A stretch of DNA of 64,000 bases from Acidobacteriota bacterium (GTDB lineage Bacteria > Acidobacteriota > Terriglobia > Acidiferrales > UBA7541), in assembly GCA_003223215.1 (NCBI GenBank), contig QHYH01000087.1, positions 1 through 64,000 on the forward strand, in the 5' to 3' direction. The position numbers and the translations under genes were made by a program. The notes beneath the pieces are model-generated. The model saw nothing but the letters and a program-made list of their open reading frames with translations, was not told the DNA's origin and did no database searches. Of this stretch, positions 8,738 to 61,176 are shown one piece after another. Each line of letters starts with the position of its first letter. The stretch's first letter is position 1.

Positions 8738-9295
8738 TCAGAAGTTGATGGCTGAGGCGAAATGGCAAGGCTTTCCGTCGGGTGGAAAGGCGGAATCTTT
8801 GAGTCTCTTCAGTTCGTCTTCAATCGCCGAAAAGTCAGGAGGTATTTTTTCCTCTTTACCTGCGAACTTGCCAACGCCAAACGTCCTGCTCGTCTTCGCC
8901 AGGCCGTCGTCAATTCTGATGGTGTGCAATTCCAATTCCTCGTTACCTTGTGCCGCATAAATGAAGATGAACTGCCTCTCGGGTAACTCGAAGAAATGTC
9001 TTTGGATAATCAATCGCACTAGGTTCTTCACCACGTCCTGGCTGACTTTGGCCCTACAAGTGGGAATGTCGGTCACAGGCATCGGACGGTCTGGGTGTGC
9101 CTGTAGAATTAGTGAACCATCGCCGCGCACGAAGAACAGTTGAACCCAACCCTTGTGGATTGGCGGTTGGTAGACTACCGTCAGCCTTTGCAGTGCCGCA
9201 TGGTCTTGGAGCAGTGGTTCCAGGTCAAGAGAGTGTCTTTCCGATTCAAACGCCTGCGGCAAGACGAACAGAAGGAAAGCGAGGACGACTCTCAT
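8738..9295 (-). CDS. Hypothetical secreted protein
   Basis: A 185-residue protein with a short N-terminal hydrophobic signal (MRVVLAFLLFVLPQAF). The body has mixed beta/alpha composition, LTVVYQPPIHKGWVQLFFV and FELPERQFIFIYAAQGNEEL, with no catalytic motif I recognise. The ending DELKRLKDSAFPP is helical. No neighbour suggests a role. The frame is intact and codon use fits the region, so it is probably a real lineage-specific gene. Confidence 0.6.
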   Translation of the reverse strand: MRVVLAFLLFVLPQAFESERHSLDLEPLLQDHAALQRLTVVYQPPIHKGWVQLFFVRGDGSLILQAHPDRPMPVTDIPTCRAKVSQDVVKNLVRLIIQRHFFELPERQFIFIYAAQGNEELELHTIRIDDGLAKTSRTFGVGKFAGKEEKIPPDFSAIEDELKRLKDSAFPPDGKPCHFASAINF

Positions 9296-32271: not shown

Positions 32272-33210
32272 CTACGCTACGCCTGGAGCTGTTGGACTTG
32301 AGTCAGGCTTCGGTTGTAATTTGAACCAGGCTACAACCCTGTCCCAGTCAACAAAAACGAGAAGCTGCGGCACGTTTAAGAAAACCAAGTTCATCGCCAG
32401 CAGAATGCCCAAGTGGAAGACCGCCACAAGCGGGACAAGCACCCTCCGCGGCCACTTCCAGAAAAGTGCCGTGATCAGGCCAAGCTCAAACAAGAGCGTG
32501 CCGATTCCCACACTCCAACAGGCAAACGGCCTGTCGGCAATCCACGTTCCCAGGGTATGGAAAACTCGGATCTGCTCCTCTTCGGTGCACCACAGCATCC
32601 AGTTTCGGATGTTGGATGCGGAAGCCCACTTCCAACCGACGCCCATGAGCTTAGCGTATCCGGAAAAGAAATAGATCTCGACGAGGTAGAGCTGGAGCAG
32701 GCGAACGGGCCAGGTGTAGTCGCTGCTGTCCGCCGACAGCTTGTCCCGCCTCGACGGGAGCAGCGTCCAGCAGTCCCCACAAGGGGAAAAAGAAAGGGTA
32801 AGCAGGGCGATCACCGAAATTGTAAAACCCCGCGCGTAGGGATGGGGAATCCAGATGAGCGATTCGAGCGGGGCGAGGTGATAAAGCAGCAGGCCTGACA
32901 CAAAGCAACAAAATCTCGGCAGTACTCCCACCATCCCACCCAGCAAAGCGATCGCGGTGATCCATACCAGCACGTGCTCCAGACCGGGATGTCCCGGGAA
33001 AACGAGGTAGCGCCAGCGAGCGCTCGCTCCTACCTGGCTCCAGAACACAGAAGGCAAGCCGGACATTTCTGCGAGGTTTCTTGAAAGCAGCACCCAAAGG
33101 GAGTACGCGGCGAATATGATTCTCGCCGCGGCCAGATTCCGAGGCGAACCTCGCGCAAACCAAAATCGGTTCCAAGCTGCGATCCACCACGAAGGATCAA
33201 GGAATTTCAT
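32272..33210 (-). CDS. HTTM-like polytopic membrane protein
   Basis: A 312-residue membrane protein resembling the HTTM domain shared with vitamin K-dependent gamma-carboxylase. The segment AAARIIFAAYSLWVLL, the HPYARGFTISVIALL region and LYLVEIYFFSGYAKLMGVGW are typical. The C-terminal lumenal carboxylase domain is absent, so carboxylation is not implied. Start and stop of adjacent genes overlap by 4 bases (ATGA), so it is co-transcribed with the next two genes on the minus strand. Function unknown. Confidence 0.75.
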   Translation of the reverse strand: MKFLDPSWWIAAWNRFWFARGSPRNLAAARIIFAAYSLWVLLSRNLAEMSGLPSVFWSQVGASARWRYLVFPGHPGLEHVLVWITAIALLGGMVGVLPRFCCFVSGLLLYHLAPLESLIWIPHPYARGFTISVIALLTLSFSPCGDCWTLLPSRRDKLSADSSDYTWPVRLLQLYLVEIYFFSGYAKLMGVGWKWASASNIRNWMLWCTEEEQIRVFHTLGTWIADRPFACWSVGIGTLLFELGLITALFWKWPRRVLVPLVAVFHLGILLAMNLVFLNVPQLLVFVDWDRVVAWFKLQPKPDSSPTAPGVA

Positions 33211-33851
33211 GGTTGTCGATAGTCGAAAATAAGGACGCGTGTGACCTTTTGCGGGTCACGACGGCGCTCTTCGAGGTTCCACGTTTCTCCGTAGATTCTC
33301 AACCCGACAAAGCGATCCGGCGGAACCTTTCCCGGGTGCGACCAGATCGCAGGATGCAGCATGTGGGTCGGCGCGGTCAGTGGACCGAACCATCGATTCG
33401 GGTACGGTAACCCGGCTGGGCTCAAGGCTTGTTCCCGCGCGCGGTTCGCCCGGCCCAGTAGGTAAGTTCCCAAACGGTCGCGGGCCGCCGGGTCAAGTTG
33501 CGCAAGGTGCAACCTTATCCAGGACTCTAGTTCCTCAAGCCCCAGCGGCCGCCATGCCCGGTAATCGATATCGTATTCTCTGCGGTCAGTATCTACCCCC
33601 ACGAATCGGGGCAAGGGGGGATAGTTCGAGCCAGTAGGCACAGCGTATGCCAGCACAGGCCACGAGGAAAATGGCCAGAGGTTGTGTTGCGTTAAACCCG
33701 CTCCGAAACTGATCAAGAGGACGGCACAAAGAAAGATGTTTGTCCGGCGGCGCTGCGCAATGGAGGAGCGAAGCCCGCCCGCAAGGGCAACCCGCAGCCC
33801 CAATATCACGAACATTAAGAAGCAAAAGGTGCTCGAAATGTTTGTTTTCAC
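33207..33851 (-). CDS. Hypothetical membrane-anchored protein, partner of HTTM protein
   Basis: About 214 residues with two N-terminal hydrophobic helices (FCFLMFVILGLRVALAGG, LCAVLLISFGAGL) and a soluble tail (YDIDYRAWRPLGLEELESWI, RVLIFDYRQP). A GTG at 33851 starts 8 bases after the formyltransferase stop and right before the first helix; an ATG at 33926 would overlap that gene by 68 bases. In my recollection proteins like this accompany HTTM proteins; the link here is by position. Confidence 0.6.
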   Translation of the reverse strand: MKTNISSTFCFLMFVILGLRVALAGGLRSSIAQRRRTNIFLCAVLLISFGAGLTQHNLWPFSSWPVLAYAVPTGSNYPPLPRFVGVDTDRREYDIDYRAWRPLGLEELESWIRLHLAQLDPAARDRLGTYLLGRANRAREQALSPAGLPYPNRWFGPLTAPTHMLHPAIWSHPGKVPPDRFVGLRIYGETWNLEERRRDPQKVTRVLIFDYRQP

Positions 33852-33858
33852 AGTTAGA

Positions 33859-34764
33859 TCACCGATCCGGTCGGCGCGATTTTCCCAGTTGTACCGACCC
33901 ATCCCGGCAGTACAGGTTCCAGCCAAAAGAAGTTGACTCTATTAGGCCGGCTGCTTTGTCACAATCGTGCGTGGTGTACCCGAGAACCGATCTGTACCGA
34001 ACTTGCCGCTCGGAACGATCGCAAAGCGGTTCAAGACGCCGGGGGCATAGCCCTCGAAGGAAATGCCAAACCCGCTCGGCATCCCACTCCGAAAAAGGAA
34101 CAAGTCTAGTCCCATGTGCGACACGTGGGGCATAGGTTGCCAGGGTTTCCTCCTGTGGTCGAGACCTAGCCTCCCCGGATGCAAGCTGGTCCAAAACCCG
34201 CAGCAGCAACTCTCCTCCCAGAAGGGCCTTTTTAGCGTACAAGCGATCCACCGGGAATCCGCGGGGCAAATCGAAAGCTTCCTGCGCGAAAATAGCGCCA
34301 GCGTCGGCCCGCTCGTTCATGCCATGCACGGTAACGCCGGTCCGTCGATCGTTATGGTAATAGACCCACAGCAACGGGTTCGCGCCACGATGACGAGGCA
34401 GCAACGACGAGTGGACGTTCAACGCGGCTCGCCCGGCGGTTTGGAGGACGTCGCGACCGAGGAGCCACGGGAACGCGGAGACACAGATGACGTCCGGCCG
34501 AAGCCGTTCGAGCTCGTTGGCGAGTTCGGAATCGGACCCGGCGGTCGCCTCAAGCAGGGGTACATCGTGAATTCTTGCCCACCGGGCCATAGCCGCCGAC
34601 GTCCCCATTCCGGTCCGCCATAGGATCGAGCGAGCCGTTCGACGCAACCAGGATTGCGATCGTGAAGGCTTCACCAGGGCGATGACCCGATGTGCACGGG
34701 AGACCGCCTCGAGGGGAACCATGCTGCCATCCCCGCTACTGCCGAAAAAGACAATCCTCAGCAC
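33859..34764 (-). CDS. Formyltransferase (Fmt-like)
   Basis: A 301-residue protein of the formyl_transf_N family. The formyl-folate site is NVHSSLLPRHRGANPLLWV (the SLLPxxRG motif with catalytic Asn and His). The catalytic Asp region is GVTVHGMNERADAGAI. It is shorter and more divergent than the housekeeping methionyl-tRNA formyltransferase, so an amino-sugar or peptide substrate is likelier than tRNA. It is the first gene of a three-gene minus unit divergent from the peptide locus, which suggests but does not prove a shared pathway. Confidence 0.8.
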   Translation of the reverse strand: MLRIVFFGSSGDGSMVPLEAVSRAHRVIALVKPSRSQSWLRRTARSILWRTGMGTSAAMARWARIHDVPLLEATAGSDSELANELERLRPDVICVSAFPWLLGRDVLQTAGRAALNVHSSLLPRHRGANPLLWVYYHNDRRTGVTVHGMNERADAGAIFAQEAFDLPRGFPVDRLYAKKALLGGELLLRVLDQLASGEARSRPQEETLATYAPRVAHGTRLVPFSEWDAERVWHFLRGLCPRRLEPLCDRSERQVRYRSVLGYTTHDCDKAAGLIESTSFGWNLYCRDGSVQLGKSRRPDR

Positions 34765-35110
34765 GATCGAACTTCTCCGCCGAGCGGAACTAGGGCGAGG
34801 ACCTTCCCTCTAGGGACGAGTCCTCGAAACGCCCTGCCGGTCACGGAGTCCCCGCGGCACCGCATCGCCAACGAGCTTCTCTGAGGAAGAGATGCCTCGT
34901 CGTGCGCCATGCTGCGTGGCGCGGAATGGGCATAGACCTCGCGTACTTCCATTGCGCTTTGCGATCGAACCCGCATAAACTTCGCTCGAATGACAAGAGC
35001 AAATGCGCTTTGGGTCGTTTGCATGGTCGATTTGGCTCGCTCGCCACCCTTGACAAAAACATTTTCCGTTGATAGATTACGCCCGTTCGTTGAAAATTTA
35101 AGGCCTTCGA
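34765..35110. other. Divergent intergenic region
   Basis: It separates the formyltransferase unit (minus) from the peptide locus (plus). The one clear signal is the promoter at 35050-35078. Confidence 0.4.
35050..35078 (+). promoter_or_regulatory. Promoter of the peptide cassette 1
   Basis: TTGACA (35050-35055), 17-base spacer, TAGATT (35073-35078). Transcription would start near 35085, about 26 bases before the decayed PqqD-like gene. Cassette 2 has the same arrangement. Confidence 0.65.
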
Positions 35111-35328
35111 AGCCACCCCAGCCTAGTGTCGAAGCCCGCCGATGGATGGCTTGCAGAAAAAAACGATCCTATCGGATTCCGCTAAACCATAAGTTCCGCT
35201 TGCTCAATCGGACTGCGGCGCTCGGCGCGAGGATCCGCAAAAGTTTTTCGGGGGTTGTGCTTTGAAGACGCCGTTCGCGATACCTCGCTAAACTTTGCGA
35301 TCGAATCCCTTCCAGGAGACAAACCGTG
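35111..35328 (+). pseudogene. Decayed PqqD-like recognition protein, copy 1
   Basis: It aligns with the intact PqqD-like gene at 41661-41951: the upstream AGGCCTTC, the NHKFRLLNRTAA segment and the block CAAAAGTTTTTCGGGGGTTG are shared. The start codon is lost, about 45 bases encoding IWNQLATPAASETVG are deleted, and stops occur. The end still overlaps the peptide start as GTGA. Confidence 0.8.
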
Positions 35329-35487
35329 ATGCAGCAAGACAACAAACCAAGCGCCCCGCCCGAGAATAACGACCGACACGCTTCCCCCATGCCGGCCTAT
35401 GAGCCGCCTCGCCTAACGGTCATGGACGAGAACCAAGTCATGAGCGTGTTCCAGGTTCCCGTCGTCGCCGGATCATGGTGGGGCTAG
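35326..35487 (+). CDS. RiPP precursor-like peptide 1 (lasso-type leader)
   Basis: A 53-residue peptide. Residues 1-22 are polar (PSAPPENN). Then PAYEPPRLTVMD carries YxxPxL, the motif by which lasso-peptide leaders bind their PqqD-like recognition protein. The end is FQVPVVAGSWWG. GGAGACAAACC lies before the GTG start, identical in cassette 2; an ATG follows directly and may be used. Residues 23-53 are identical to peptide 2, and all four base differences in that stretch are silent. A lasso core is unlikely: counting by analogy with known precursors, no Asp or Glu lies at ring positions 7-9 and no Thr at -2. Confidence 0.75.
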   Translation: MMQQDNKPSAPPENNDRHASPMPAYEPPRLTVMDENQVMSVFQVPVVAGSWWG

Positions 35488-36611
35488 TGCACGGTGTTCG
35501 AGCCGCTACAGACTCCGGCTCTCCGTCGGTCGAGGCGCGGCCGCTTCGTCCCTCCTCTTGGTGGCTAGAGCCGTCCAAATTGCTGAAACGCTTTTCACAC
35601 CTACGGGAAAATTCTCGTTCCTGCGACTGGTATCGCATCGTGGATGGTTTTCTGGGCGTTGACTCAGAAGATTTGCCCTTGCGGCAGAGATTTAGAACGC
35701 TCTACGCGGAACTCCTCTCCGAGCCTCCTTCGCCGTCGGAGGCAACCCCATGGGTGCGGTGCCACATCCAGGTGCAGGATGGGTTGCCCGCCCACCTGGT
35801 CACATTCACAGCTCCGTCAGAGGTTGCGATCATCGATTTCCTGCTCGCACTGTTTTCCCATCGCGGTTATGTCGAAATGGATCATGCTGCCGGCGGTTGG
35901 CGGTCCATCGCTTTGGCAGGCAGGACTCCGCCACTGCTGACAGCCAGAGGCGCCGAGGTGCTGGTGGACGCACGGGAGACCTGGCAGCCACTCATCGGGA
36001 ATTGCGCTGTCAATTGGGTCATGCACCTGCAGCCCGACCTACTGTTCTTCCACGCGGCTGCGTTGGCCATCGGAAGGGAAGGCGTTTTGATTGCGGGCGA
36101 AAAGGCGGCCGGCAAATCTACGTTGTCGATGGCGCTCGCCGCACGGGGCCACGACTTTTTCGGAGATGAGATCGCCGCGGTGCGTACGGAAACGTTTCAG
36201 TTGGCGCCCTTTCGTCGGGCCGTATCGGTTCGAGAAGGGCCGCAAGCCCCGGCGGTCGAGAAGCGACTCGCCGAGAAATGCTGCTTTACGGAAACGTTTC
36301 CCGATGGCACGGTGCGCTCTCGCGCACGCGCCTGTGAACTTTTCCCCGCCTCCGACGCTCGTCCACAAACCCTTCGGTGGGTCTTTTTTCTGCGTGGATT
36401 CGACGATCGACCACATGCGGAACCGTTCCGTCCGCGCTCGGAGGACCTGCGTTTGCTCATGCCGCTCGCTTGCACGTTTTGGGGGAGGTCTTCTAGGGCG
36501 CGAATCGCGCAGGTTGCCAGATTGCTGTCCAACGTCCATTGTTATTTTCTCTACCCGGGACTGCCGGAAGATACGGCTGAGCTGGTGGAGAGAATTGTGA
36601 GGTCAGAATGA
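35475..36611 (+). CDS. HprK-like kinase
   Basis: A 378-residue protein with the P-loop fold of HPr kinase: FHAAALAIGREGVLIAG, Walker A GEKAAGKST (residues 208-216), then HDFFGDEIAAV with the acidic pair. The first 180 residues are not HprK and have no known domain. HprK-like kinases in lasso-peptide loci phosphorylate the precursor; here Ser50 in AGSWWG is the obvious candidate (inference). The ATG overlaps the last 13 bases of peptide 1; a GTG at 35487 (TAGTG) is an alternative. Related kinases with PqqD-like partners also occur in exopolysaccharide loci. Confidence 0.82.
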   Translation: MVGLVHGVRAATDSGSPSVEARPLRPSSWWLEPSKLLKRFSHLRENSRSCDWYRIVDGFLGVDSEDLPLRQRFRTLYAELLSEPPSPSEATPWVRCHIQVQDGLPAHLVTFTAPSEVAIIDFLLALFSHRGYVEMDHAAGGWRSIALAGRTPPLLTARGAEVLVDARETWQPLIGNCAVNWVMHLQPDLLFFHAAALAIGREGVLIAGEKAAGKSTLSMALAARGHDFFGDEIAAVRTETFQLAPFRRAVSVREGPQAPAVEKRLAEKCCFTETFPDGTVRSRARACELFPASDARPQTLRWVFFLRGFDDRPHAEPFRPRSEDLRLLMPLACTFWGRSSRARIAQVARLLSNVHCYFLYPGLPEDTAELVERIVRSE

Positions 36612-37159
36612 GTCTTTCGGTGCAGGAGAGAGCTGAGTACGTCGCTACATTTCGCTTCATCCAGGTTTTTCTCATGGAAACGCTTGCTCGCTGGGTGCCT
36701 CCGACTCCAGAGATGGAGGTCAAGGTCTTGTTCGGACGCCACATCTGGGACCTTGCACAGCAGGCCGACGCGCTGGGAAGGCGGGGCTACGAGCTGCGTG
36801 CGCCGTTGCAGTTCAGCCTTCGACCCGCCGAGAGCTACGTCGAGGTCCTCGAGGAGTTTGCCCGGACCAACACTACCCCTCAAAAGATTCACGGCTTTTA
36901 TGATGTGATCCTGCCGGGCCTTGCGGCACGATACCGGAATTACTTGGAGCGTACCGACCGTTTGTTGGACGAACCTACCGTGCGCGTGGTGGAAAAGATT
37001 CTCGGCGAGTTTAACAGGATGATCGGGGAGAGTGAAGCGCTGCGGAAGGAACTCTCTCAACTGCGGCTGACCGACAAGGACTGGCCGGCTGGGCTTGCGA
37101 AGCGCGAGGCGAGTGAAGCGAATATCGTCGTGCGCCGGTCTTCTGCGGCAGTTGCATGA
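36608..37159 (+). CDS. Helical protein of unknown function, peptide locus
   Basis: A 183-residue helical protein. The start overlaps the kinase stop by 4 bases. The segment MEVKVLFGRHIWDLAQQADA then LGRRGYELRA looks like a ferritin-like helix pair but lacks the two ExxH motifs of the next genes. FARTNTTPQKIHGFYDVILP follows. It may be a non-catalytic partner of the diiron proteins. I do not recognise a family. Confidence 0.65.
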   Translation: MSLSVQERAEYVATFRFIQVFLMETLARWVPPTPEMEVKVLFGRHIWDLAQQADALGRRGYELRAPLQFSLRPAESYVEVLEEFARTNTTPQKIHGFYDVILPGLAARYRNYLERTDRLLDEPTVRVVEKILGEFNRMIGESEALRKELSQLRLTDKDWPAGLAKREASEANIVVRRSSAAVA

Positions 37160-37169
37160 AGGAGGGCCT

Positions 37170-37979
37170 ATGGCCGGAATGAAGCCTGAAGAAACCAAGC
37201 AAGTAAAAGGGATGACGTTGCGACGCGATCCGGCCCGGGAGGCCTGCTTTAAGGTGGTCGACAGCGACGCGGAGCTCGAAGAGTGGCCGGGGATGACCGA
37301 GATTTCCCGGCGTCAACGCATCCACCGCCACATGAACAACGAGACAGGAGCGATTGAGATCGCCGCGCAATGTCTCGTGGATTTCCCCGAGGCGCCGTGG
37401 GAACTGCGCATGCACCTGGCGCGTCAGTGTTGGGATGAAAGCCGGCACGTGGCCGGGCTCTATCGGCGCTTGCGTGAGATCGGCGGCTACAAGGGAGAGT
37501 TTCCAATTTCCTGCTTTGAGTGGTGTGTGACGTGTTCGCTCGACACGCTGGCGGCGCGACTGGCGCTCCAAAACCGCACCTTCGAAGCGGGCGAACTGGA
37601 CCTGCTTGGTCAGCTACCGGCCAAGTGGCGGGAAGCAGGCGATGAGAAAACGGCCGAGGTCCTCGAGTCCATCCTTGGCGATGAAATCACCCATGTTCGC
37701 TTTGCTAATCAATGGCTGAGAGTCTTGGTGCGGGAGGATCGCCGGCTTGCGCTCAAGATCGCCATGGCCGTTCGCTTCCTCTCGGCCGTCACCGCCGCAT
37801 TGGCACCGCAAGACGGGCAATTGAGCCCCGTCGGGCTGCCCTACGAAGAGCCGCAAAACAGAATTACCCAGGTCAACGTTGCCGACCGCAAACAAGCCGA
37901 TTTCACCGACAGTGAAATCGACGAGTACTTGCGTCAGTCAGGGTTTCAGCCGATTATGACCGGCAATGCCGAAGGATGA
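37170..37979 (+). CDS. Ferritin-like diiron protein, paralogue 1
   Basis: A 269-residue four-helix protein with a full set of diiron ligands: Glu58/Glu63 region (NNETGAIEIAAQ), E90-SR-H93 (CWDESRHV), Glu139 (NRTFEAGEL) and E172-IT-H175 (DEITHVRF). The layout is like DUF455/MiaE/PaaC-type oxygenases. It could oxidise a substrate with O2; a peptide side chain such as Trp is an inference from context. GGAGG lies 5 bases before the ATG and 2 bases after the previous stop. Cys residues (SCFEWCVTCS) are peculiar to this copy. Confidence 0.8.
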   Translation: MAGMKPEETKQVKGMTLRRDPAREACFKVVDSDAELEEWPGMTEISRRQRIHRHMNNETGAIEIAAQCLVDFPEAPWELRMHLARQCWDESRHVAGLYRRLREIGGYKGEFPISCFEWCVTCSLDTLAARLALQNRTFEAGELDLLGQLPAKWREAGDEKTAEVLESILGDEITHVRFANQWLRVLVREDRRLALKIAMAVRFLSAVTAALAPQDGQLSPVGLPYEEPQNRITQVNVADRKQADFTDSEIDEYLRQSGFQPIMTGNAEG

Positions 37980-38745
37980 TGAACACTCCGTGAGCACTGC
38001 CGGCAATTTAGATCCCGCGCTGTTTGGACCAGCTCCGGCCCGCGATGAACGTTTTACCGAGAAGCGCCGGTGGATCGAGTGTGCCAATTTTCCCAATGAC
38101 CACCCCCTGAGGATTATTGAATTCTTTCATCGCCAAATGAACGAGGAATTGAACGGCGTAGAAAATGCCGCGCAGTCGCTCGCCGACTTTCCGGACACGG
38201 ACTGGAAGGTACGCATGTCGATCGCCCGCCAGTGCGCCGACGAAGCTCGCCATGTCGAAATGTTCCGGCGCATCTTCGAGAGCCGGGGTGGCAAACTCGG
38301 GGAATACCCAATTCTGAATTTCCAGTACCGGATCATCGCCAATCTCGGCGATCTCTTGAGCCGCTTGGTGGTACAAAACCGCAGCTTTGAAGCGGGCGGA
38401 ATCGATGCGGTGAGTTTCGCCATCGACGAAGCCCGCAAAAGAGGCGATCAGGAACTGGTGGATCTGTTCGAGATGCAACAGGCCGACGAAATCACCCATG
38501 TTCGCTTCGCCAATGAATTTATCTCGGAGACCATCCGCAAGGATCCTCGTGCCGCATTGCGGGTGGCGAAGGCCCTGACCCTTGCTTCCACCGCATTCCT
38601 CGAGGTCATGGGTAGAGAAGCCATCGAGAAGGTCGCATACCTCACGGACGAAAAGGGCCGGCTGGAAGCCGGTTTTGGGCTCGCGGAAGTAAAGGCCGCT
38701 ACCACGCAGGCAATCAAACGGCGCGCCTCGTATGAAAGCCACTGA
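37966..38745 (+). CDS. Ferritin-like diiron protein, paralogue 2
   Basis: A 259-residue paralogue of the preceding gene, overlapping it by 14 bases. Ligands are kept: NEELNGVENAAQ, ADEARHVEMF (ExxH), NRSFEAGGID and DEITHVRFANEF (ExxH). The first helix reads FHRQMNEELNG where paralogue 1 has IHRHMNNETGA. Tandem paralogues could form a heterodimer or act on two positions. The function is not known. Confidence 0.8.
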   Translation: MPKDDEHSVSTAGNLDPALFGPAPARDERFTEKRRWIECANFPNDHPLRIIEFFHRQMNEELNGVENAAQSLADFPDTDWKVRMSIARQCADEARHVEMFRRIFESRGGKLGEYPILNFQYRIIANLGDLLSRLVVQNRSFEAGGIDAVSFAIDEARKRGDQELVDLFEMQQADEITHVRFANEFISETIRKDPRAALRVAKALTLASTAFLEVMGREAIEKVAYLTDEKGRLEAGFGLAEVKAATTQAIKRRASYESH

Positions 38746-39862
38746 TCTCGCGGGAATGGCAAATCCCTGGTCGGGAGGCGTGTCTTCCGGCCGAGAGGAT
38801 CGCAATCCGAACGATGCTGGGGCTCTCGCTCCCGGCCAAAACAAGCGCGGCTGGATCGAGTCCCCGCTGTTCGATCTGAGCCTGTTTACCTTGTCACCGC
38901 TTGCCGGTCTATTCGTCATACTGCCGGTGCTCCTGTCGCCAAAGGGCCTGCACGTCTACATTGCGGCCACCTATCTGATTGCCATTCCGCACTATGTCTC
39001 GAGCTTCAGCTTTTATCTGGGCGATGAGAACCTGGCGTACTACCGCACGCGTCGGTTGGCTTTTTTTGCTGGTCCGGTGTTGATCCTCATCGGCGTGATG
39101 GCGTTGCGACTCACCAAGCTGGACGCCGCGGTGCAGTCTTCGCTCTATGTGTGGAATGTCTTTCACGTTTCCATGCAAAGCGCCGGCATCCTGGCCCTCT
39201 ATCGGCGCCTCCATGGAGGTTCGCTCTCCGAGAGCCGGTTTGCACGTGCTTCCCTGCTCGGCGTGAACGGGAGTCTGGCATTTTTGCATATTGACCGCTT
39301 TGATCCGATTTATCAGAACCTGCTGAGGATGCATTTCCCGGTGTGGGCCATTCCCGCCACCTTTCTGAGTGTCGCGGTGGTTGGGCTGATCTTCTACTTC
39401 GCGAGACTTCGGCGGCGTGCGAAACCGATGCGAGCCCCCGAGCTCACCTTTCTTGTCTCAAGCCTGCTGCTCTTCCACCCCTACCTGTGGGTCCGCGACC
39501 TGGATCTTGCGACCTTTGGCATGCTCATGGGGCATTTTTTGCAGTATTTGGGCATCGTCTGGTTGCTCAATCGCAGGAAGTACGCGACCTTGAAGGGTTC
39601 CGAACACCAGCAGATGCTTTCCTCGATCAGTAGCAAGACCCCGCTTCTCCTGCTCACCTTGGTTTCCGTCGGGCTGGCATTTTATGTGGCGCAAAAGAGC
39701 AGTGCTTGGCTGGGCGTTCCTGTTTCTTACGTCATCCTTTGGAATTCGCTGGCACTGGTTCACTTCTACCTGGACGGGCTCATCTGGGCGTTCAAGAATC
39801 CGTTCGTTCGCAAGTCCATTGGACCGCACCTCACTCCGGAATCGCACATGGCCGCGCAATGA
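38732..39862 (+). CDS. Polytopic membrane protein, peptide locus
   Basis: A 376-residue protein with about nine hydrophobic helices. Conserved-looking polar membrane residues are AIPHYVSSFSFYLGDENLAY and NVFHVSMQSAGILALYRR. Their His residues could bind metal or a cofactor. The start overlaps the preceding gene by 14 bases. I do not recognise the family. Confidence 0.7.
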   Translation: MKATDLAGMANPWSGGVSSGREDRNPNDAGALAPGQNKRGWIESPLFDLSLFTLSPLAGLFVILPVLLSPKGLHVYIAATYLIAIPHYVSSFSFYLGDENLAYYRTRRLAFFAGPVLILIGVMALRLTKLDAAVQSSLYVWNVFHVSMQSAGILALYRRLHGGSLSESRFARASLLGVNGSLAFLHIDRFDPIYQNLLRMHFPVWAIPATFLSVAVVGLIFYFARLRRRAKPMRAPELTFLVSSLLLFHPYLWVRDLDLATFGMLMGHFLQYLGIVWLLNRRKYATLKGSEHQQMLSSISSKTPLLLLTLVSVGLAFYVAQKSSAWLGVPVSYVILWNSLALVHFYLDGLIWAFKNPFVRKSIGPHLTPESHMAAQ

Positions 39863-40147
39863 GGGGAGGCAACCGAGATAACCCGGTGGCCGAGCGTCTC
39901 GGAGCAAGCGGCCACTGCTATTTCGAGCTTGCTCGAGTTGCCGTTCGGGCGAAACACACTTGATTTCCTCCTCCGACGAGCCGTCTCTCTACTTTTTGTA
40001 TTCGATGAGAGTCTCTGTCCCTTGGGAAAGCCAAGGACTGTGCCATCCCGAGAGCTTTTGGAGGTTCGAGCGGCCGGATCTCAAATTGTGCCTGGCAGAA
40101 TTTCGCGTTCGCTTCCGAGTACAACGCCGGCACACTGGAGGCTCAAG

Positions 40148-41497
40148 ATGGAAAATGAGGGTCGACCGGCGCCCCGTTGGTCGCGGGCGCAACTCTTGGC
40201 GTTTCGATTCGCCTTTGTCTACCTTATCTTGTACTACCTTCCGTTCCCCTTCGGTGCCTTTCCCTACACCGGCCGAGTCGCGCAAAAATACGAATCACTC
40301 TGGCACCAGCTCGTGCCTTGGGTTGGCCGGCATGTCCTTCACCTGAGCTATGAGATTTTGACCTCCACGAACTGCAGTGGCGATACCACCTATGAATATG
40401 TGCGAGTCCTGTGTTTTTTCGGCTTGGCCCTCGCTGCCTCGCTTGTTTGGTCCATGCTCGATCGATCGAGCTCAAACTACCAGCGCATGCATGCATGGCT
40501 CCGGCTTTATGTCCGGCTTTCCGTTGGAGCCGCGATGCTCATGTACGCAGGGGCTAAGATTTTCTTGCAGCATTTTCCTCCGCCCAATCTCTATAAGCTG
40601 CTCGAGCCCCTCGGCAATTACTCACAGATGAGCTTGCTTTGGACCCTTATGGGTGCGTCTCGCGGCTACACCCTGTTTGTCGGCTGTCTGCAGATGCTTG
40701 CAGGCATCCTGCTTTTCCTTCCGCGGCTGACAACTCTCGGAGCTCTGGTCGGCATTGCGGTCTTTTCGAACATTTTTGCTCTCAACTTGGGCTATGACTT
40801 GCCGATTAAGATCTATTCCTTGCACATCCTGCTCGTCTGCTTGTTTCTTGTTCTGCCGGACGCGCCGCGGTTGGTTCGCTTCTTCTTGCTCAATCAAGAG
40901 GTGGCATCTTTGTCCGAAAACGGGCTCTTTCATCTCCGGCGTCTAAACACGGCCGCCCTGGTGGCGCAATTGGCGCTCGGCGGGGTTCTTGCCTGCACTT
41001 ACCTTGTGCATGCGTACGATTACGAAAAACGGCACTTCAGCCCGGCTTCTCGGCCTCCGTTCTTCGGCATCTGGAACGTCGAGGAATTCCTGCTCGGCGG
41101 CAAGGTGCTGCCCCCGCTCGAAACCGACGGGACCCGCTGGCAAAGGGTGGTCTTTCAGTTTCCCACGGAGATTGGCATTCAGTCGATGAACGGCTCGTGG
41201 ATGGGATATTGGCTGCGCGCGGACATGGCGGGGAAGACCTTGGCCATGGGAAAACCCAATGACTCCAACGGAGAGTTCGAATTCGTCTTTGCAGACCCAG
41301 ATTCGCGGTCGCTGACCCTCGAAGGAACCGACGGGAGAAACGAGATTCGGGTGAAACTTCGCCGATTGGACGAAAAACAATTTGCGCTGCTCGCCAGAGG
41401 CTTCCACTGGATCGACGAGGACGCTGCTTTGGTGCAGGATGAAGAGGGTGTCTGTGATCGCGTCCGGCAGACAGGAGGTCCTCTCCCTGCGCGCTGA
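40148..41497 (+). CDS. DoxX-like membrane protein
   Basis: A 449-residue protein. The N-terminal two thirds hold about eight helices, including LSVGAAMLMYAGAKIFLQHF and LGNYSQMSLLWTLMGAS, a DoxX-like pattern. The last 130 residues are soluble and beta-rich (WQRVVFQFPTEIGIQSMNGS). The ATG at 40148 begins MENEGRP just before the first helix; the frame upstream is open but not protein-like. A 285-base gap precedes it. Role unknown; DoxX-like proteins often serve oxidoreductase complexes. Confidence 0.7.
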   Translation: MENEGRPAPRWSRAQLLAFRFAFVYLILYYLPFPFGAFPYTGRVAQKYESLWHQLVPWVGRHVLHLSYEILTSTNCSGDTTYEYVRVLCFFGLALAASLVWSMLDRSSSNYQRMHAWLRLYVRLSVGAAMLMYAGAKIFLQHFPPPNLYKLLEPLGNYSQMSLLWTLMGASRGYTLFVGCLQMLAGILLFLPRLTTLGALVGIAVFSNIFALNLGYDLPIKIYSLHILLVCLFLVLPDAPRLVRFFLLNQEVASLSENGLFHLRRLNTAALVAQLALGGVLACTYLVHAYDYEKRHFSPASRPPFFGIWNVEEFLLGGKVLPPLETDGTRWQRVVFQFPTEIGIQSMNGSWMGYWLRADMAGKTLAMGKPNDSNGEFEFVFADPDSRSLTLEGTDGRNEIRVKLRRLDEKQFALLARGFHWIDEDAALVQDEEGVCDRVRQTGGPLPAR

Positions 41498-41602
41498 AAA
41501 ATTCTCTGCGGTCCTCAAGGCAGGGCGGCTTGCTCAAACGAGGTGTGTGTAGGCGGCTTGCGGTCGAGGCCGACGACCGATGACAGACGACCGATGACCA
41601 GC

Positions 41603-41631
41603 TTGACCGTGACTCTCGCCCTTGCTAGGCT
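41603..41631 (+). promoter_or_regulatory. Promoter of peptide cassette 2
   Basis: TTGACC (41603-41608), 17-base spacer, TAGGCT (41626-41631). Start of transcription near 41638, about 23 bases before the PqqD-like gene. Confidence 0.5.
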
Positions 41632-41660
41632 AAAACCCCGGCCAAATTGAGGCCTTCAAA

Positions 41661-41951
41661 GTGAGCACGGTCTACCGTCGAAGTCCCGCCATAGAGATGG
41701 CACCCCTGCAGGAAGAGACCATCCTGTTTGATCCGCAAAACAACAAGTTCTGCTTGCTCAATCGCACTGCCGCTTTCATTTGGAACCAGCTGGCCACGCC
41801 GGCAGCTTCCGAGACGGTCGGCGCCGAGCTCTGCAAAAGTTTTTCGGGGGTTGCACTGGAAAACGCCGTGCGCGATGCGAGAGGCGCACTCGAAGAGATG
41901 CGCTCGCTGAACTTCGTGATCGAAGAATCTGTTCCGGGAGACAAACCGTGA
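41661..41951 (+). CDS. PqqD-like peptide recognition protein (RRE)
   Basis: A 96-residue PqqD-family winged-helix protein, the RiPP recognition element that presents precursor leaders to enzymes. Seen: TILFDPQNNKFCLLNRTAAF (beta strands with the LN-x-T/A-x-x-x-W motif), IWNQLATPAASETVGAELCK and a final helix ALEEMRSLNFVIEE. GTG start with GAGG 8 bases upstream. The stop overlaps the peptide start as GTGA. It is the only intact copy and would have to serve both peptides. Confidence 0.87.
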   Translation: MSTVYRRSPAIEMAPLQEETILFDPQNNKFCLLNRTAAFIWNQLATPAASETVGAELCKSFSGVALENAVRDARGALEEMRSLNFVIEESVPGDKP

Positions 41952-42109
41952 CGGAACTGGACAACAGACCAAGCGCCCCGCCCGAGAAAAACGACAGACA
42001 GGCTTCCTCACTGCCGGCCTATGAGCCGCCTCGCCTCACGGTTATGGACGAGAACCAAGTCATGAGTGTGTTCCAGGTTCCCGTCGTCGCCGGCTCATGG
42101 TGGGGCTAA
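41948..42109 (+). CDS. RiPP precursor-like peptide 2 (lasso-type leader)
   Basis: A 53-residue peptide beginning at the GTG that overlaps the PqqD-like stop. It differs from peptide 1 at eight positions in residues 2-22 and at none in residues 23-53 (PAYEPPRL...VVAGSWWG). The YxxPxL motif, Ser50 and the terminal Trp-Trp-Gly are conserved. Divergence confined to the first part shows selection on the second part, including the part beyond the leader motif. Confidence 0.78.
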   Translation: MTELDNRPSAPPEKNDRQASSLPAYEPPRLTVMDENQVMSVFQVPVVAGSWWG

Positions 42110-42349
42110 GCCTCCTTGTTCGGTTCGATCGTACGCTAGATTCGCCGATCACTTTGTTCCTCCTGATTGCTGCTGGTTTTGTATCGAGTGGGTCGCTGGT
42201 CTACGACGAAGGGGCTCCGAGTGACTGGCTGCGAATCCCGACATCGGTGATCCGCAGCACGGAGCTCTTAATTTGAGTTCCAATTCGGACGAATTGGGCC
42301 TGGGGAGAGCTCCGTTGCTCCAGGAAGTCTTCATCGCCGAGGCGGTAGC

Positions 42350-42937
42350 GTGAAACTGAATCCATCGAGTGTCGTGGCCCAGCCGGTTGTCGCGAGCGAG
42401 CGCTTGCTGGCGATCTCGAGTCTCCTAAAGAGAGGATCTCGGGATTTCGATTTTCAACTTCATGGCAAGAGTATGGCCCCCGCGCTGCCCGATGGCTCCT
42501 GGATCCGCGTCAGGCCGGCTGCTGATGGCCGGTTCACGGTCGGCCAAGTACTGACCTACGTGGCGAAGGACCGCGTGGTGGCCCATCGTTTGGTGCTGTC
42601 CATGAAATCGCGGAGCACGGAGTATCTGATTACCCGCGGAGATGCGACGGTCTGTTGTGATTGGCCGGTGCCCGCGACGTCCGTTTTGGGCACAGTGATT
42701 GGATTTTCTGCCGACCGGCCATGGCAACCAGTAGGTCCGCCTCCGGAGAGATGGTTGGGCTTTCGCTCGACGGCATTGCTGATCTCGAGCGTGGTTGCCC
42801 ATCTCCTGAAAGTGAGCCCTCGCGCCGCTGTCTTCACCGCAAAAAGGTTCATTCGTATTCATGGAATGGTCGAGAGAGCCATGGGCTATCTAAAGCGTCG
42901 CGTGGTTCTTGGTTCGCGTCGAGGAGTCGCTCTCTGA
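42350..42937 (+). CDS. S26-family (SipW-like) peptidase
   Basis: A 195-residue protein with the S26 signature HGKSMAPALPDGSWI (nucleophile Ser41), then VVAHRLVL with His79 and LITRGDAT. Ser/His dyads occur in SipW/ER-type signal peptidases. There is no clear N-terminal membrane anchor, so it may act in the cytoplasm; a hydrophobic segment (STALLISSVVAHLL) lies later. It is a candidate for removing the peptide leader, because no transglutaminase-type B2 protease was found. GTG start. Confidence 0.75.
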   Translation: MKLNPSSVVAQPVVASERLLAISSLLKRGSRDFDFQLHGKSMAPALPDGSWIRVRPAADGRFTVGQVLTYVAKDRVVAHRLVLSMKSRSTEYLITRGDATVCCDWPVPATSVLGTVIGFSADRPWQPVGPPPERWLGFRSTALLISSVVAHLLKVSPRAAVFTAKRFIRIHGMVERAMGYLKRRVVLGSRRGVAL

Positions 42938-42978
42938 AGCAGGATTGGAAACCGCCGAGGCCTTCGCAATCGAAAAGC

Positions 42979-44319
42979 GTGCAGTCCCCCTCTTCCCCTT
43001 ATCCAGGCTATTCGCGCGAGAACGAGTTTTTGCTTCAATTGCTGGGTCGGCCGCGTCAGGAACGGTCCCTGCCGCTCCAAGCCACCGCATCACAGGTCGA
43101 TTGGCAGCGCTTGTTTCAAATCACACCGCCAGATTTAACCGCCTATCTTGAATACAAGATCCGTGAGCACGGTTTCGCCGGTCAATGCCCGGCTGAGCTG
43201 TTGCGGGAAGCCGGGCATGCCCGTCTGGCCGCCGCAGCCCGATGGCTGCGCTTGCGTTTTGAACTGCAGAACCTAGTGAGAGAGTTTAGGCGGCATGAGG
43301 TCGAGTTCGTGATTTTGAAAGGCGCCGTGCTGGCGTTTATGGCCTACCCCGATTCTTCGCTGCGGCCTGTTTCTGACGTCGATCTGCTGGTGCGCCCGGA
43401 AAGTCTCGCGAAAACTCTAAAGCTCATCGGGGACGCTGGTTTCAAGTGCCCGAAGCGATTCGAGTTTACAGACCCTTTGATGGTGAAAGATTTTGTGGTT
43501 CCTGGAGAAGAGATCTCCCTGCCACTTGAAAAACCCGGCACGCAGGCGCTCATCGAGGTACATACGCAGCTAGAATCTGCCGAACCATGGTTTGCGGTAC
43601 CGACGGCAAAGGTTTGGGAGCACGTCGAGAAAGCAGACTGGAACGATTTGTGTATTCCCGTCCTTGATGCGCATGAATTCCTCTTTCATTTGGTGCTGCA
43701 CCTCTCACGGGGCCACTTCTTCTCCCTGGGATTGCGGCCGCTGCTCGATATTCATCTATGGGTGGAACTTCAGGCGAAGCGCTTGGACTGGGACGGGATC
43801 CGCGGGGAGAGCATCGTCAGGGGCTACCGGGACTGGATGTACCTAACACTCAAGATGGTGAGAGACTGTTTCGCGACCGGAATCCCGTCGGAATTCTTCA
43901 CTCAGATGGAGGCGCCGCTAAAGCTCAACCAGCTCGAAAGCCTCGCTTACGAACAGATTTGGCTAAATCACGGCTTGCAATCCCTGGTTCCCCCGCGTCT
44001 GGCCATAACCTTTTCACATCCATCGGTCGGGCAAGCCATTGGTTCCTTGTTCCGGAGAATAGGGCGGGGGAAGTCGTTTGACGGTCGAACCATTCCCGCC
44101 TTGAGGGCCCCAAAGACCACTCCCTGGCACCGGAGTTTTCGTGGCCTCCTTCGTGATTTGAAGATCAAAGCGCCACTCTACCTGAGGGCCTGGCGGAACG
44201 GCAGCCTGGCCTGGTCGAGCCTTCGGCAAGCGGCCCGCTTGGTCAGAGGACGAGGAGAGATCAGAGAAATTCTCATGAATCGGCACGAGACGGGGAGGCA
44301 ACAGGAAGAAAATGGATAG
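42979..44319 (+). CDS. Nucleotidyltransferase family protein (NTP_transf_5)
   Basis: About 446 residues. The transferase core is FVILKGAVLAFMAYPDSSLR then PVSDVDLLV, with the two catalytic Asp in SDVDLLV. Helical repeats follow (LDAHEFLFHLVLHLSRGHFF). Proteins of this family are frequent beside PqqD-like and HprK-like genes in exopolysaccharide and lasso-type loci; their reaction is unknown. The start is uncertain: the frame runs back into the peptidase gene, and a GTG at 42979 is the best codon after its stop. Confidence 0.75.
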   Translation: MQSPSSPYPGYSRENEFLLQLLGRPRQERSLPLQATASQVDWQRLFQITPPDLTAYLEYKIREHGFAGQCPAELLREAGHARLAAAARWLRLRFELQNLVREFRRHEVEFVILKGAVLAFMAYPDSSLRPVSDVDLLVRPESLAKTLKLIGDAGFKCPKRFEFTDPLMVKDFVVPGEEISLPLEKPGTQALIEVHTQLESAEPWFAVPTAKVWEHVEKADWNDLCIPVLDAHEFLFHLVLHLSRGHFFSLGLRPLLDIHLWVELQAKRLDWDGIRGESIVRGYRDWMYLTLKMVRDCFATGIPSEFFTQMEAPLKLNQLESLAYEQIWLNHGLQSLVPPRLAITFSHPSVGQAIGSLFRRIGRGKSFDGRTIPALRAPKTTPWHRSFRGLLRDLKIKAPLYLRAWRNGSLAWSSLRQAARLVRGRGEIREILMNRHETGRQQEENG

Positions 44320-54029: not shown

Positions 54030-54769
54030 CGGGAAACCACGCCGCTTCGTTGGTTACCACGAGTTGGGACGATGGGCATCCTCTCGATCTGCGCATTGCC
54101 GACCTGCTCGCGAGATACGGCTTAACCGGCACGTTCTACATTCCCCGCAACGTGGGCTGGCCAACGATGACTGCCGGCGAGATCTGCCAGCTCGGTTCGC
54201 GGTTTGAAGTGGGCGCCCATACGCTCGATCACACCGCGCTCAACCGAGCTGCGGACGGCGAAGTGCTGCGCCAGTTGTCGGGGTCGCGCGCGTGGATCGA
54301 AGATGTCACGGGGAAGCCCTGCCGAGTCTTTTGTTTCCCCGCAGGCAAGTACCGGCGAGCACAGTTGCCCCTGGTGCGAGGAGCGGGATATCTGTCGGCA
54401 AGAACGATCGAATTCCTCTCAACCGACTTGCCACGCCGTGTCGAGGGGCTCGCACTGATTCCCACCACCGTGCAAGCCTACCCTCACTCGCCCGTCGCCT
54501 ATGCCAGGAATGCCCTCAAGCGGTGGTCTTTGGTAAACCTGTTTCGGACGGGGGCTTTGTTGTCGAGACGCGATTGGCAGAAACTCGCAGGGAAGTTGCT
54601 CGAGCGAACTCTCCGTCACGGGGGTGTTTTTCACCTCTGGGGACACTCCTGGGAAATTGAGCAGGAACACCAATGGGACCGGCTCGAAAAATTGCTGGCA
54701 ACGATTGCGGCAAACAAAGACAAGGTAACCTCGATGACGAACTCAGAGCTGGGATCCTATGCGCTTTAA
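54026..54769 (+). CDS. Polysaccharide deacetylase
   Basis: NodB-fold carbohydrate esterase family 4 protein of 247 residues. Motif 1 is TTSWDDGHP (catalytic Asp and metal Asp), motif 2 VGAHTLDHTAL (HxxxH), motif 3 FCFPAGKYRR, with a late LWGHSWE. GTG start overlapping the previous stop. It should remove acetyl groups from an N-acetylated sugar in the polymer or its precursor. There is no signal peptide, so it acts in the cytoplasm or on lipid-linked units. Confidence 0.85.
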   Translation: MTGNHAASLVTTSWDDGHPLDLRIADLLARYGLTGTFYIPRNVGWPTMTAGEICQLGSRFEVGAHTLDHTALNRAADGEVLRQLSGSRAWIEDVTGKPCRVFCFPAGKYRRAQLPLVRGAGYLSARTIEFLSTDLPRRVEGLALIPTTVQAYPHSPVAYARNALKRWSLVNLFRTGALLSRRDWQKLAGKLLERTLRHGGVFHLWGHSWEIEQEHQWDRLEKLLATIAANKDKVTSMTNSELGSYAL

Positions 54770-55748
54770 TACGGAAGAAATCGCAGGAAGTCTTTGCTGT
54801 CCCGATGATCAGAGATCCTTGCGCTCGAACGACGGAACTCTACGATGCTGCCATTGCGGCAGAGTCTATCCGGTCCGGGAAGGAGGGATCCTCGACCTCC
54901 TTCCAAGCAAGCCTGCGGGATCGCCGGCCAACCCGGAATACGCAGCCTATTACCATTTCGAGTTTTACCGAGCCTTCGAACCTCGAGAAGGCGCGAACCC
55001 GTGGGGCCTCCGTGAAACTCAGTCGCCGTCGTGGAGGCGGCATCGCGAGCGGCAGGTGCGTACCGTCCTTTCCATGCTGAGAAGAGACGAGGCCCGGTTC
55101 GAGGATCGCATCCTTGGCGATGTCTCTGCGGGTGTAGGAGATTACACGCTCTCCTACGCGCGGCACTTCAAGTGGGTGCTCCATTGCGACCTGTCGATCG
55201 ACGCCCTGCGTTACGCCCTCGCAAGGTCCCGCCGCATGGGTCTTCAGAATGTCTTCTTTTTGCGCGTGGACTATTTTGCCCTGCCCTTTCGTAGCTCGAT
55301 CGATCGACTGCTGTGTCTGGATACCTTGATTCGCGGGCAAGACCATGAGAAGGCTCTGTTAAACCAGATCGAGAGGGCCACTGCGAGCGAGGGCCGGGCC
55401 ATCGTCGACTTTCATCATTGGTGGCACAACCCGCTGCGGCGGCTCGGCCTGCTGCCGCAAAACTTCGGGAATAATCGCAGTTATACGCGAAGTGGCGCCG
55501 AAGGCCTGCTGCGGGAGTGCGGAGTGGAAGGCTGGAGGCTGGTCCGCTTCTACCAGGAGTTTGCACCAGAGAGCACGTCTTTAAAACGGATTTCTTGGCT
55601 GTTGCCTGCGACACGCTTATTATATGAGTTCGGGTCGGCCGCTTCCGGACACACCTCGCGAGCCAGCGCCGAAACCGACTTTTCAACCACCTCCCAGCCC
55701 AATCCGTCGGATACCGCTCGCGGAGCGGCAAAGATCTGGTACACCTGA
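54759..55748 (+). CDS. Methyltransferase-like protein with Trm112-type zinc ribbon
   Basis: A 329-residue protein. The N-terminus has two CxxC-like pairs (SLCCPDDQ, LRCCHCGRVYPVREG), a Trm112-like ribbon ending in GILDLLP. A degenerate SAM-binding fold follows: GDVSAGVGDYTLSYARHF then VLHCDLSIDALRYALARS. The usual GxGxG is ASAGVG-like, weaker than normal. The last 50 residues are Ser/Thr-rich and may be added sequence. The start overlaps the deacetylase. Confidence 0.75.
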   Translation: MRFNTEEIAGSLCCPDDQRSLRSNDGTLRCCHCGRVYPVREGGILDLLPSKPAGSPANPEYAAYYHFEFYRAFEPREGANPWGLRETQSPSWRRHRERQVRTVLSMLRRDEARFEDRILGDVSAGVGDYTLSYARHFKWVLHCDLSIDALRYALARSRRMGLQNVFFLRVDYFALPFRSSIDRLLCLDTLIRGQDHEKALLNQIERATASEGRAIVDFHHWWHNPLRRLGLLPQNFGNNRSYTRSGAEGLLRECGVEGWRLVRFYQEFAPESTSLKRISWLLPATRLLYEFGSAASGHTSRASAETDFSTTSQPNPSDTARGAAKIWYT

Positions 55749-59256: not shown

Positions 59257-61176
59257 ATGTGCGGAATCGTTGGCTCCATACAAACCGGTGAGCACGTACC
59301 GCTTCGAGACGCGGTTCGACGGGCCATGGATCATATGGTCCATCGCGGGCCGGACGGCCAAGGCCTAGAGGAGTTTATCGTCAGAAACGGCACCGCTTCG
59401 TCCACTTTGGGCGCACCTCCGATTGCCACGGTCTTGTTCGGTCACCGCAGATTGGCCATCATCGATCTATCGGAAGCCGCGCGCCAGCCCATGTCGACTC
59501 CCGACGGCCGATTCCACCTTAGTTTCAATGGCGAGATTTACAACTATCGGGAAATTCGCGCCGAACTCAAGAATCTCGGCCACAGTTTCCGGACCAGCTC
59601 CGATGCGGAAGTGCTGCTCGAGGGATGGCGAAGATGGGGAAAGGCCTTGCTGCCGCGCCTGATCGGTATGTTTGCGTTTGCCGTTTTCGATTCCGAGCAC
59701 GCTTCTGTCCTGCTCGCGCGAGACCCCTTTGGCATCAAGCCGCTTTATTACGTCCAGGACAGGCACAGAATCGTATTTGCCTCGGAAATTGCTCCGCTGC
59801 TCGAGGTCCCCGGGGTGAGCCGCAAGGCACACCCACAGACGGTCTATGACTTCCTTTCCGGCGCAATGGGGGAACTTGCCGACAGGACCTTTTTTCAAGA
59901 CGTCCGCCAGCTTGCAGCCGGGCACTATTTGGCAATTTCCTGCGCATCTCCCGGGACGGCAGAGCCCGTGTGTTACTGGGAACTCGAGCGGAAACGGGCC
60001 CAGTGCATATCGCCCCAAGAGGCGAGCTCAGGCTTCCGCGATCTTTTCGAGCAAAGCATCAGACTGCATCTGCGGAGCGACGTTCCTGTTGGCGTGTCTC
60101 TTTCCGGAGGCATGGATTCGTCTGCGATCACGGCCATGGTCCGAGCTGTCCAGGGCCCGGAAATCCCATTACACACGTTTAGTTATGTCGCAGAAGATCC
60201 TGAGCTCTCAGAAGAACGGTGGTCTGGAATGGTCGCGCGGGCGATGGCGGCCAAACAGCACCTAGTCCACATTCATCCCAACGAGCTCGTCGAGGACTTT
60301 CGCGAGCTAGTGCGCGTGCAAGAACAGCCATTTGGATCGCCAACCATCTACGCCCAGTACCGCATTTTTCGATCCGTTCACGAGGCGGGCGTGAAAGTGG
60401 TGTTGACCGGCCAGGGTGCAGATCAATATCTCGGGTACATTCGGCATCTCCCCGTGCGTCTTGCCACCCTCGTGCGGACAGGCCATTGGTTAGCGGCCAT
60501 GCAGTTCCTGCGGCATGCGAAGGCGCTGCCTACGTCGGCGGCACTAAGCCTCCGGGGGGTGGTACGCGAGACCCTTCCGGCGACCCTTGTAGAAACCGTG
60601 AGGCGTGTGCGAACAAGGCCGCCGCTCGGGGCCAATGCCGATTGGTTTCGCGAGCGCGGGATCGGCTCTCCAAGAACCCGTTACAGCAAAGGTCCTGGAC
60701 GCAGTTTGCACGGTCTGGCGAAGCAGAACCTTTTGGAGGCTCTTCCCGCCTTGCTTCGGTTTGAAGACAGAAATGCAATGGCCTTTTCGGTAGAGAACCG
60801 CGTTCCCTTCCTGACTACTGATCTTCTCCATTTTGTATTTTCCCTGCCCGAGGAAGAAATTATTTCCGCGGAGGGTCGTTGCAAGGCGGTTCTGCTTCGT
60901 GCCATGCGCGGGCTCGTCCCCATGGAGGTCCTCGACCGCCGCGACAACATCGGGTTTGCCATGCCCATCTCGAAACTGAATCGTCAAACGCAGTCGTGGC
61001 TCCAAGGTATCCTGAGGGGCGCCGCCGCCATTCCTGCTCTGGATGTTGCCGAACTCGAGAGACGTGTGAACCTGACCCTGGACAATCAAGCGTCCGATAC
61101 AGAGTCAGAACGCTGGTTGTGGCGATGGCTGAGCCTCATAACCTGGGCCAGCGAGTTCCAAGTGCGCTTTGCGTGA
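59257..61176 (+). CDS. asnB: Asparagine synthetase (glutamine-hydrolysing)
   Basis: A 639-residue enzyme with an N-terminal class II amidotransferase domain (catalytic Cys2 in MCGIVGS, FNGEIYNY) and a synthetase domain with the ATP loop SLSGGMDSSAI. Such enzymes in exopolysaccharide loci are thought to amidate a sugar acid. A relative closes the lasso-peptide ring, but those lack glutaminase activity more often, and this protein sits 15 kb from the peptides. A sugar role is favoured; a peptide role cannot be excluded. Last gene of the block. Confidence 0.9.
   Translation: MCGIVGSIQTGEHVPLRDAVRRAMDHMVHRGPDGQGLEEFIVRNGTASSTLGAPPIATVLFGHRRLAIIDLSEAARQPMSTPDGRFHLSFNGEIYNYREIRAELKNLGHSFRTSSDAEVLLEGWRRWGKALLPRLIGMFAFAVFDSEHASVLLARDPFGIKPLYYVQDRHRIVFASEIAPLLEVPGVSRKAHPQTVYDFLSGAMGELADRTFFQDVRQLAAGHYLAISCASPGTAEPVCYWELERKRAQCISPQEASSGFRDLFEQSIRLHLRSDVPVGVSLSGGMDSSAITAMVRAVQGPEIPLHTFSYVAEDPELSEERWSGMVARAMAAKQHLVHIHPNELVEDFRELVRVQEQPFGSPTIYAQYRIFRSVHEAGVKVVLTGQGADQYLGYIRHLPVRLATLVRTGHWLAAMQFLRHAKALPTSAALSLRGVVRETLPATLVETVRRVRTRPPLGANADWFRERGIGSPRTRYSKGPGRSLHGLAKQNLLEALPALLRFEDRNAMAFSVENRVPFLTTDLLHFVFSLPEEEIISAEGRCKAVLLRAMRGLVPMEVLDRRDNIGFAMPISKLNRQTQSWLQGILRGAAAIPALDVAELERRVNLTLDNQASDTESERWLWRWLSLITWASEFQVRFA

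Follow-up and report, generated by a model that had tools for sequence, protein, structure and literature searches.

What is made by two short peptide genes and the enzymes surrounding them in a soil Acidobacteriota genome? The window (the whole stretch of 64,000 nucleotides analysed here) encodes two 53-residue peptides with a YxxPxL motif and a common VPVVAGSWWG end, exactly as an earlier note had described. The PqqD-like protein, HprK-like kinase, two diiron proteins, S26 peptidase and nucleotidyltransferase listed there on the same strand could each be matched to a family. A decayed pqqD copy, the protein u183 and two conserved membrane proteins were added to this list, while only one pqqD is intact. 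The features are, in their order along the window:

32272..34764, minus strand: HTTM membrane protein, 239-aa protein and formyltransferase, neighbours recurring in other genomes
about 35100..35325, plus strand: decayed second pqqD copy, whose alignment to 41640-41948 shows gaps of 42 and 24 bases besides smaller indels
35326..35487, plus strand: precursor peptide 1, YEPPRLTVMDENQVMSV-FQVPVVAGSWWG, starting at GTG 35326 or ATG 35329; based on the family alignment, Tyr-FQ spacing and purifying selection
35475..36611, plus strand: HprK-like peptide kinase (TIGR04352, 1.6e-14) with P-loop GEKAAGKST, an upstream His and GDE; its start overlaps the end of peptide 1 by 13 bases
36608..37159, plus strand: u183, a conserved 183-aa putative helper protein without a family, kept in every locus with intact coverage
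37170..37979 (ORF opens at 37095), plus strand: FerA, DUF455 diiron protein (PF04305, 4.5e-29)
37966..38745, plus strand: FerB, DUF455 diiron protein (PF04305, 6.9e-20; AF2 pLDDT 84) with a diiron oxygenase fold
38732..39862, plus strand: mem376, a membrane protein in which four His motifs are conserved (PHY, WNxxHVSxQS, GHxxQYL, HFYxDG)
39929..41497, plus strand: mem522, membrane protein detected only in acidobacterial relatives
41661..41951, plus strand: PqqD-like RiPP recognition element (RRE) (PF05402, 1.1e-9; profile matches to TbiB1, 2e-8, and LppB, 8e-7)
41948..42109, plus strand: precursor peptide 2, whose GTG start overlaps the pqqD stop
42350..42937, plus strand: S26 leader peptidase of the Ser-His-Asp type (TIGR02228, 7e-9, under the cut-off), with SM, HR and GD invariant in 14 homologues
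42979..44319, plus strand: NTP_transf_5 nucleotidyltransferase (PF14907, 4e-42); the ORF opens with TTG 42661, and homology places the true start near GTG 42979
59257..61176, plus strand: AsnB-like amidotransferase with Cys2, a recurrent neighbour elsewhere and possibly in the pathway

Downstream of the nucleotidyltransferase, genes for Wzz, a sugar transferase (Bac_transf), Wzx and Wzy_C follow on the same strand, and the run does lead into a Wzx/Wzy locus, as had been noted. A cytochrome P450 gene (26570-27949) precedes the cluster by about 7 kb, and a tRNA-Ser(gct) is predicted at 55039-55126, inside a methyltransferase ORF (54759-55748).

Peptides 1 and 2 are identical over their last 31 residues. 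With the Tyr numbered as 1, an alignment of 13 distinct peptides shows it to be invariant, as are the Pro three residues later, Gln19 and the WW pair; position 18 is F or I, position 20 is V, I, L or M, and position 21 is mostly Thr. The spacing from Tyr to FQ is constant and gap-free, giving the family motif YxxPx[LIV]x[VAT][ML]...[FI]Q...WW. The residue preceding WW varies; G011 has Met there, L079 Cys and L089 Gly. When the four most closely related genomes are compared, codons 23-53 carry 2-17 synonymous versus 0-7.5 non-synonymous changes, with dN no higher than 0.11 and dS ranging from 0.1 to saturation, while selection on the first 22 codons is relaxed. In both the window and its same-genus relative G024, peptide 1 is still intact although the pqqD in front of it has decayed. 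The short frames might also be untranslated, with the conserved stretch acting as a regulatory element before HprK, and the overlap of the peptide end with the kinase start would fit this. However, the changes are mostly synonymous, peptide 2 precedes a different gene and is equally well conserved, and conservation at the protein level spans phyla, making such an element extremely improbable. Given the constant Tyr-FQ spacing, WW in 13 of 13 sequences and the near-zero dN over the conserved part, the peptide is considered genuine. A PDB sequence search with the peptide returned nothing useful.

As suggested in the earlier note, other genomes were searched for a conserved peptide beside PqqD- and HprK-like genes. 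The cluster with its peptide was found at 14 further loci in Acidobacteriota and Gemmatimonadota, i.e. 15 including the window. Since peptide, spacing and gene set repeat in these 14 other loci, the gene association is not due to chance. Allowing for contigs that end early, pqqD, peptide, HprK, u183, FerA, FerB and S26 are kept across the 15 loci of the two phyla, with reordering in some (L059, L079). Among same-genus relatives, G024 has two peptide copies in the same layout, G015 has one and G011 has one divergent copy; when 399 genomes from the class were searched with u183, a further full cluster came up in G365, a member of another family. A FerB scan of 84,980 species pointed to clusters in Acidobacteriota, Gemmatimonadota, Proteobacteria and Omnitrophota, two of these loci (Proteobacteria, Omnitrophota) having the enzymes without the peptide; in the proteobacterial locus, L061, neither peptide nor pqqD was found nearby. 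A peptide-only profile retrieved extra clusters in G443, G466 and G428 (Acidobacteriota) and in G841, G857, G876 and G402 (Gemmatimonadota set), all with pqqD plus HprK, u183 and FerA as far as the contigs extend. Because these clusters were not used in building the profile, they independently confirm the association between peptide and enzymes. The cluster is infrequent, with matches in 4 of the 36 genomes from the genus, 6 of the 396 from the phylum (one being the window's own genome and two without the cluster) and 5 of the 298 from the Gemmatimonadota phylum. A peptide match in L080 looks like chance, as no pqqD is present, and was rejected. On the 4 kb contig L081 (682-1024), a pqqD lies beside a different YxxP peptide (MTNENNHSDPTPTGLPPYEPPQVTTYSEDQVLKELGDAKALTAFDPLSPNY), another RiPP-like pair. 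L057 carries, after mem522, a second mem376 broken into two fragments (12717-13098), a remnant of a wider tandem duplication.

The leader raises the question of a lasso peptide. Among crystallised RREs, the PqqD profile recognises TbiB1, LppB (7.6e-7), TfuB1 and PbaB1, and the Asp aligned with LppB D70, which bonds the leader Tyr (PMC13381572), is invariant in 11 aligned sequences. Against TIGR04353, the PqqD relatives reach at best 26 of 35 bits, under its cut-off. Paeninodin and Bsf of Bradymonas (PMC10368454) share with the WW cluster a YxxPxL leader, an RRE, an HprK-like kinase and a nucleotidyltransferase. With cleavage before FQ, the Tyr of the WW peptides would stand at -17, as in the phosphorylated lasso peptides (PMC10368454). 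A lasso peptide with an unusual ring would thus agree with the leader spacing, the lasso-type RRE, the kinase and NTP transferase pair, and the AsnB-like genes without Cys2 in L023, L061 and L062. Against it, none of 13 predicted cores has Asp or Glu (none at core position 7-9), no B2 peptidase was found at the locus, the core genes include no dedicated macrolactam cyclase, and the AsnB of the window has Cys2, matches asparagine synthase best and lies 15 kb away. A canonical lasso peptide is excluded by the missing acidic residue and the lack of a nearby B2, in agreement with the earlier note, and we regard an unusual ring as very improbable. The genome's only Transglut_core3 (B2) match lies on another contig beside another PqqD, forming a separate lasso-type B1 (PqqD) and B2 pair (G000 contig 279, L083, about 8500-9295, minus strand). 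An RRE tree (19 rows, long branches) did not separate placement of the window-type RREs with lasso from placement with the linear peptides discussed below.

A closer parallel is found in the linear polyphosphorylated peptides (LPP) of Bacillota (Popov et al. 2026, PMC13381572), to which phylum their authors restrict them. LPP and WW clusters have in common a discrete YxxP-binding RRE, an HprK-like kinase, a SipW/archaeal-type Ser-His-Asp leader peptidase and an uncharacterised NTP transferase, with no macrolactam cyclase. The kinase of the window matches TIGR04352 with 53.7 bits against a 200-bit cut-off and PF07475 with 7e-6, and its relatives keep the P-loop and His/Asp residues. Kinases of this type phosphorylate a core Ser in the lasso precursor BsfA and the linear precursor LppA (PMC10368454, PMC13381572). 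Relatives of kinase A and of the PqqD-type chaperone of the HPr-rel-A system (NCBIfam TIGR04352/TIGR04353) are present here, both under the curated cut-offs. The Ser, His and Asp of the S26 peptidase, invariant in 14 homologues, correspond to S29, H68 and D93 of LppS. The S26 proteins show no strong N-terminal membrane helix by hydropathy, which together with the triad fits the expectation for a predicted LppS-like leader peptidase. The PF14907 nucleotidyltransferase occurs in the window and many loci and is absent within the flanks of some.

The WW peptides match the LPP precursor motif YxxPxVLxHQxIxFETxxS only at YxxPx[LIV], FETxxS being absent as such. In addition, the WW cluster differs from LPP in its two DUF455 diiron proteins and u183 and in its acidobacterial and gemmatimonadotal hosts, and an MsbA-type exporter, an LPP feature, was not found among the genes annotated at the window. 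With a shared tool set, a failed precursor motif, two diiron proteins per complete locus and other phyla, the WW cluster would work like an LPP cluster, yet is not one. The earlier proposal of a new peptide class therefore holds in part: no description of the family was found in the literature searched, but ‘class’ is too strong, as RRE, HprK-like kinase, SipW-like peptidase and NTP transferase form the published LPP set.

The diiron proteins set the cluster apart. FerA and FerB score 102 and 72 bits, above the PF04305 gathering score of 34.3, and both keep the Glu, ExxH, Glu, ExxH diiron-type ligands of a four-helix bundle, which are invariant in the FerA alignment. The FerB model (pLDDT 84) aligns with the azoxy synthase VlmB, ADO, R2lox and MiaE at Z 14-16 and 10-18% identity, in a helical bundle where Z values of about 13-14 can be common. 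These proteins share the fold and the Glu/ExxH pattern with the DUF455 proteins, and the model thus supports an oxygenase type, while naming no substrate. A PDB sequence search with FerB gave nothing useful. Moreover, literature searches on DUF455 with RiPP and on ferritin-like proteins with PqqD returned nothing relevant, and no DUF455 or ferritin-like oxygenase linked to a RiPP precursor was found. u183 is related to the N-terminal part of ferritin-like proteins of 430-520 aa. Such proteins are encoded in L051-L055, where one chain joins a u183-like and a DUF455-like ferritin domain, suggesting that u183 is a split-off partner domain. These distant matches were rejected as clusters, being fusions in unrelated contexts without a YxxP peptide of the WW type beside them. 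The mem376 model (pLDDT 63) gave no meaningful fold match, and no family could be assigned.

Taken together, the product of the WW gene cluster is very probably a peptide that carries chemical modifications and ends in two tryptophans. That this is a RiPP cluster with a linear, RRE-guided, probably phosphorylated and oxidised product is the reading we favour as likely. Weighing against it are the kinase score well below the family threshold, the varying residue before WW, the missing FETxxS, the common helical-bundle fold of FerB, the L061 locus in which neither peptide nor pqqD was found, and the failure to identify an exporter. In the pathway that we infer, including its order and the substrate of each enzyme, the PqqD-like protein would bind the leader via YxxP and offer the peptide to the modifying enzymes. 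A Ser/Thr in the core, most probably the neighbour of WW, would be phosphorylated by the HprK-like kinase, and the two DUF455 proteins, with u183 as probable partner, would oxidise the core, where the invariant Trp-Trp is the most likely site. Leader removal would fall to the S26 peptidase, which would most probably cut behind the small residue located 16 positions past the Tyr and release FQVPVVAGSWWG. By lasso spacing, this cleavage would fall before FQ and after A/V/S/T with L/M/F at -3, a predicted site resembling that of LppS (T-1, F-3); a later cleavage, e.g. before or within the S/T-WW segment, would also be possible. The nucleotidyltransferase might attach further groups, as might AsnB-, formyltransferase- and hydroxylase-type enzymes in many genomes, and the product would stay linear. 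More tentative is the specific proposal of a cross-phylum peptide family in which RRE-guided DUF455 diiron enzymes oxidise or crosslink the invariant Trp-Trp, which we consider possible but doubtful.

Several of these enzymes recur around the cluster. AsnB-like, formyltransferase, HTTM and fatty-acid-hydroxylase (PF04116) genes are recurrent neighbours elsewhere, and the window cluster is also flanked by formyltransferase and HTTM (32272-34764) and by AsnB (59257). PF04116 membrane proteins lie by the cluster in L064, L077, L078, L087-L089, L062 and L023, in L088 replacing mem376 in position. AsnB-like proteins lacking the glutaminase Cys2 are encoded in L061 (11421-13373), L062 (1337-3322) and L023 (15527-17515), in L061 and L062 directly after the S26 peptidase; in L061, a broken hydroxylase-like frame lies upstream. 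Another possibility might be that the peptide is a scaffold from which one or both Trp are oxidised and excised as a small redox cofactor or signalling compound, comparable to Glu-Tyr in PQQ biosynthesis. The PqqD adaptor, invariant WW, several oxygenase-type enzymes and the AsnB and formyltransferase beside the cluster are consistent with this. On the other hand, no radical SAM or PqqB/PqqC-like gene is present among the annotated genes, the single peptidase is leader-peptidase-like, and conservation of the core includes FQ[VI]T, which would be superfluous for a WW unit that is released. A released small molecule is therefore unlikely compared with the linear modified peptide.

Finally, the earlier note had linked the peptide to the polysaccharide, as being secreted with it, attached to it or controlling it. 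The Wzz/Wzx/Wzy locus adjoins the cluster in the window, G024, G015 and partly G365, and LPP clusters are often near capsule genes too (PMC13381572). Yet in a check covering homologues of the window's polysaccharide genes and the Pfam-sampled neighbours of five loci, polysaccharide-gene homologues were found beside the cluster only in G024, G015 and G365 (L056, L057 and L058), i.e. the window's own lineage. They are absent from 14 other locus sequences (13 clusters), and the five Pfam-sampled loci have no Wzx/Wzy or glycosyltransferase. The co-occurrence with Wzx/Wzy, which the earlier note had proposed to test, thus did not hold generally, and since the homologues are confined to one lineage, the link is not general. 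A role tied to the polysaccharide is accordingly quite improbable, and the linkage in a single lineage is no guide to function.

The WW peptide family looks like an undescribed, iron-enzyme-equipped cousin of the LPP, extending the logic of RRE, kinase and SipW-like peptidase beyond Bacillota and giving DUF455, a diiron family so far uncharacterised, a concrete peptide as candidate substrate. If true, Trp-Trp oxidation or crosslinking by DUF455 proteins would be a new peptide-modifying chemistry, possibly yielding a peptide-derived redox cofactor. The WW motif with its fixed Tyr-FQ spacing can also serve as a query for mining the genomes of little-studied soil phyla.
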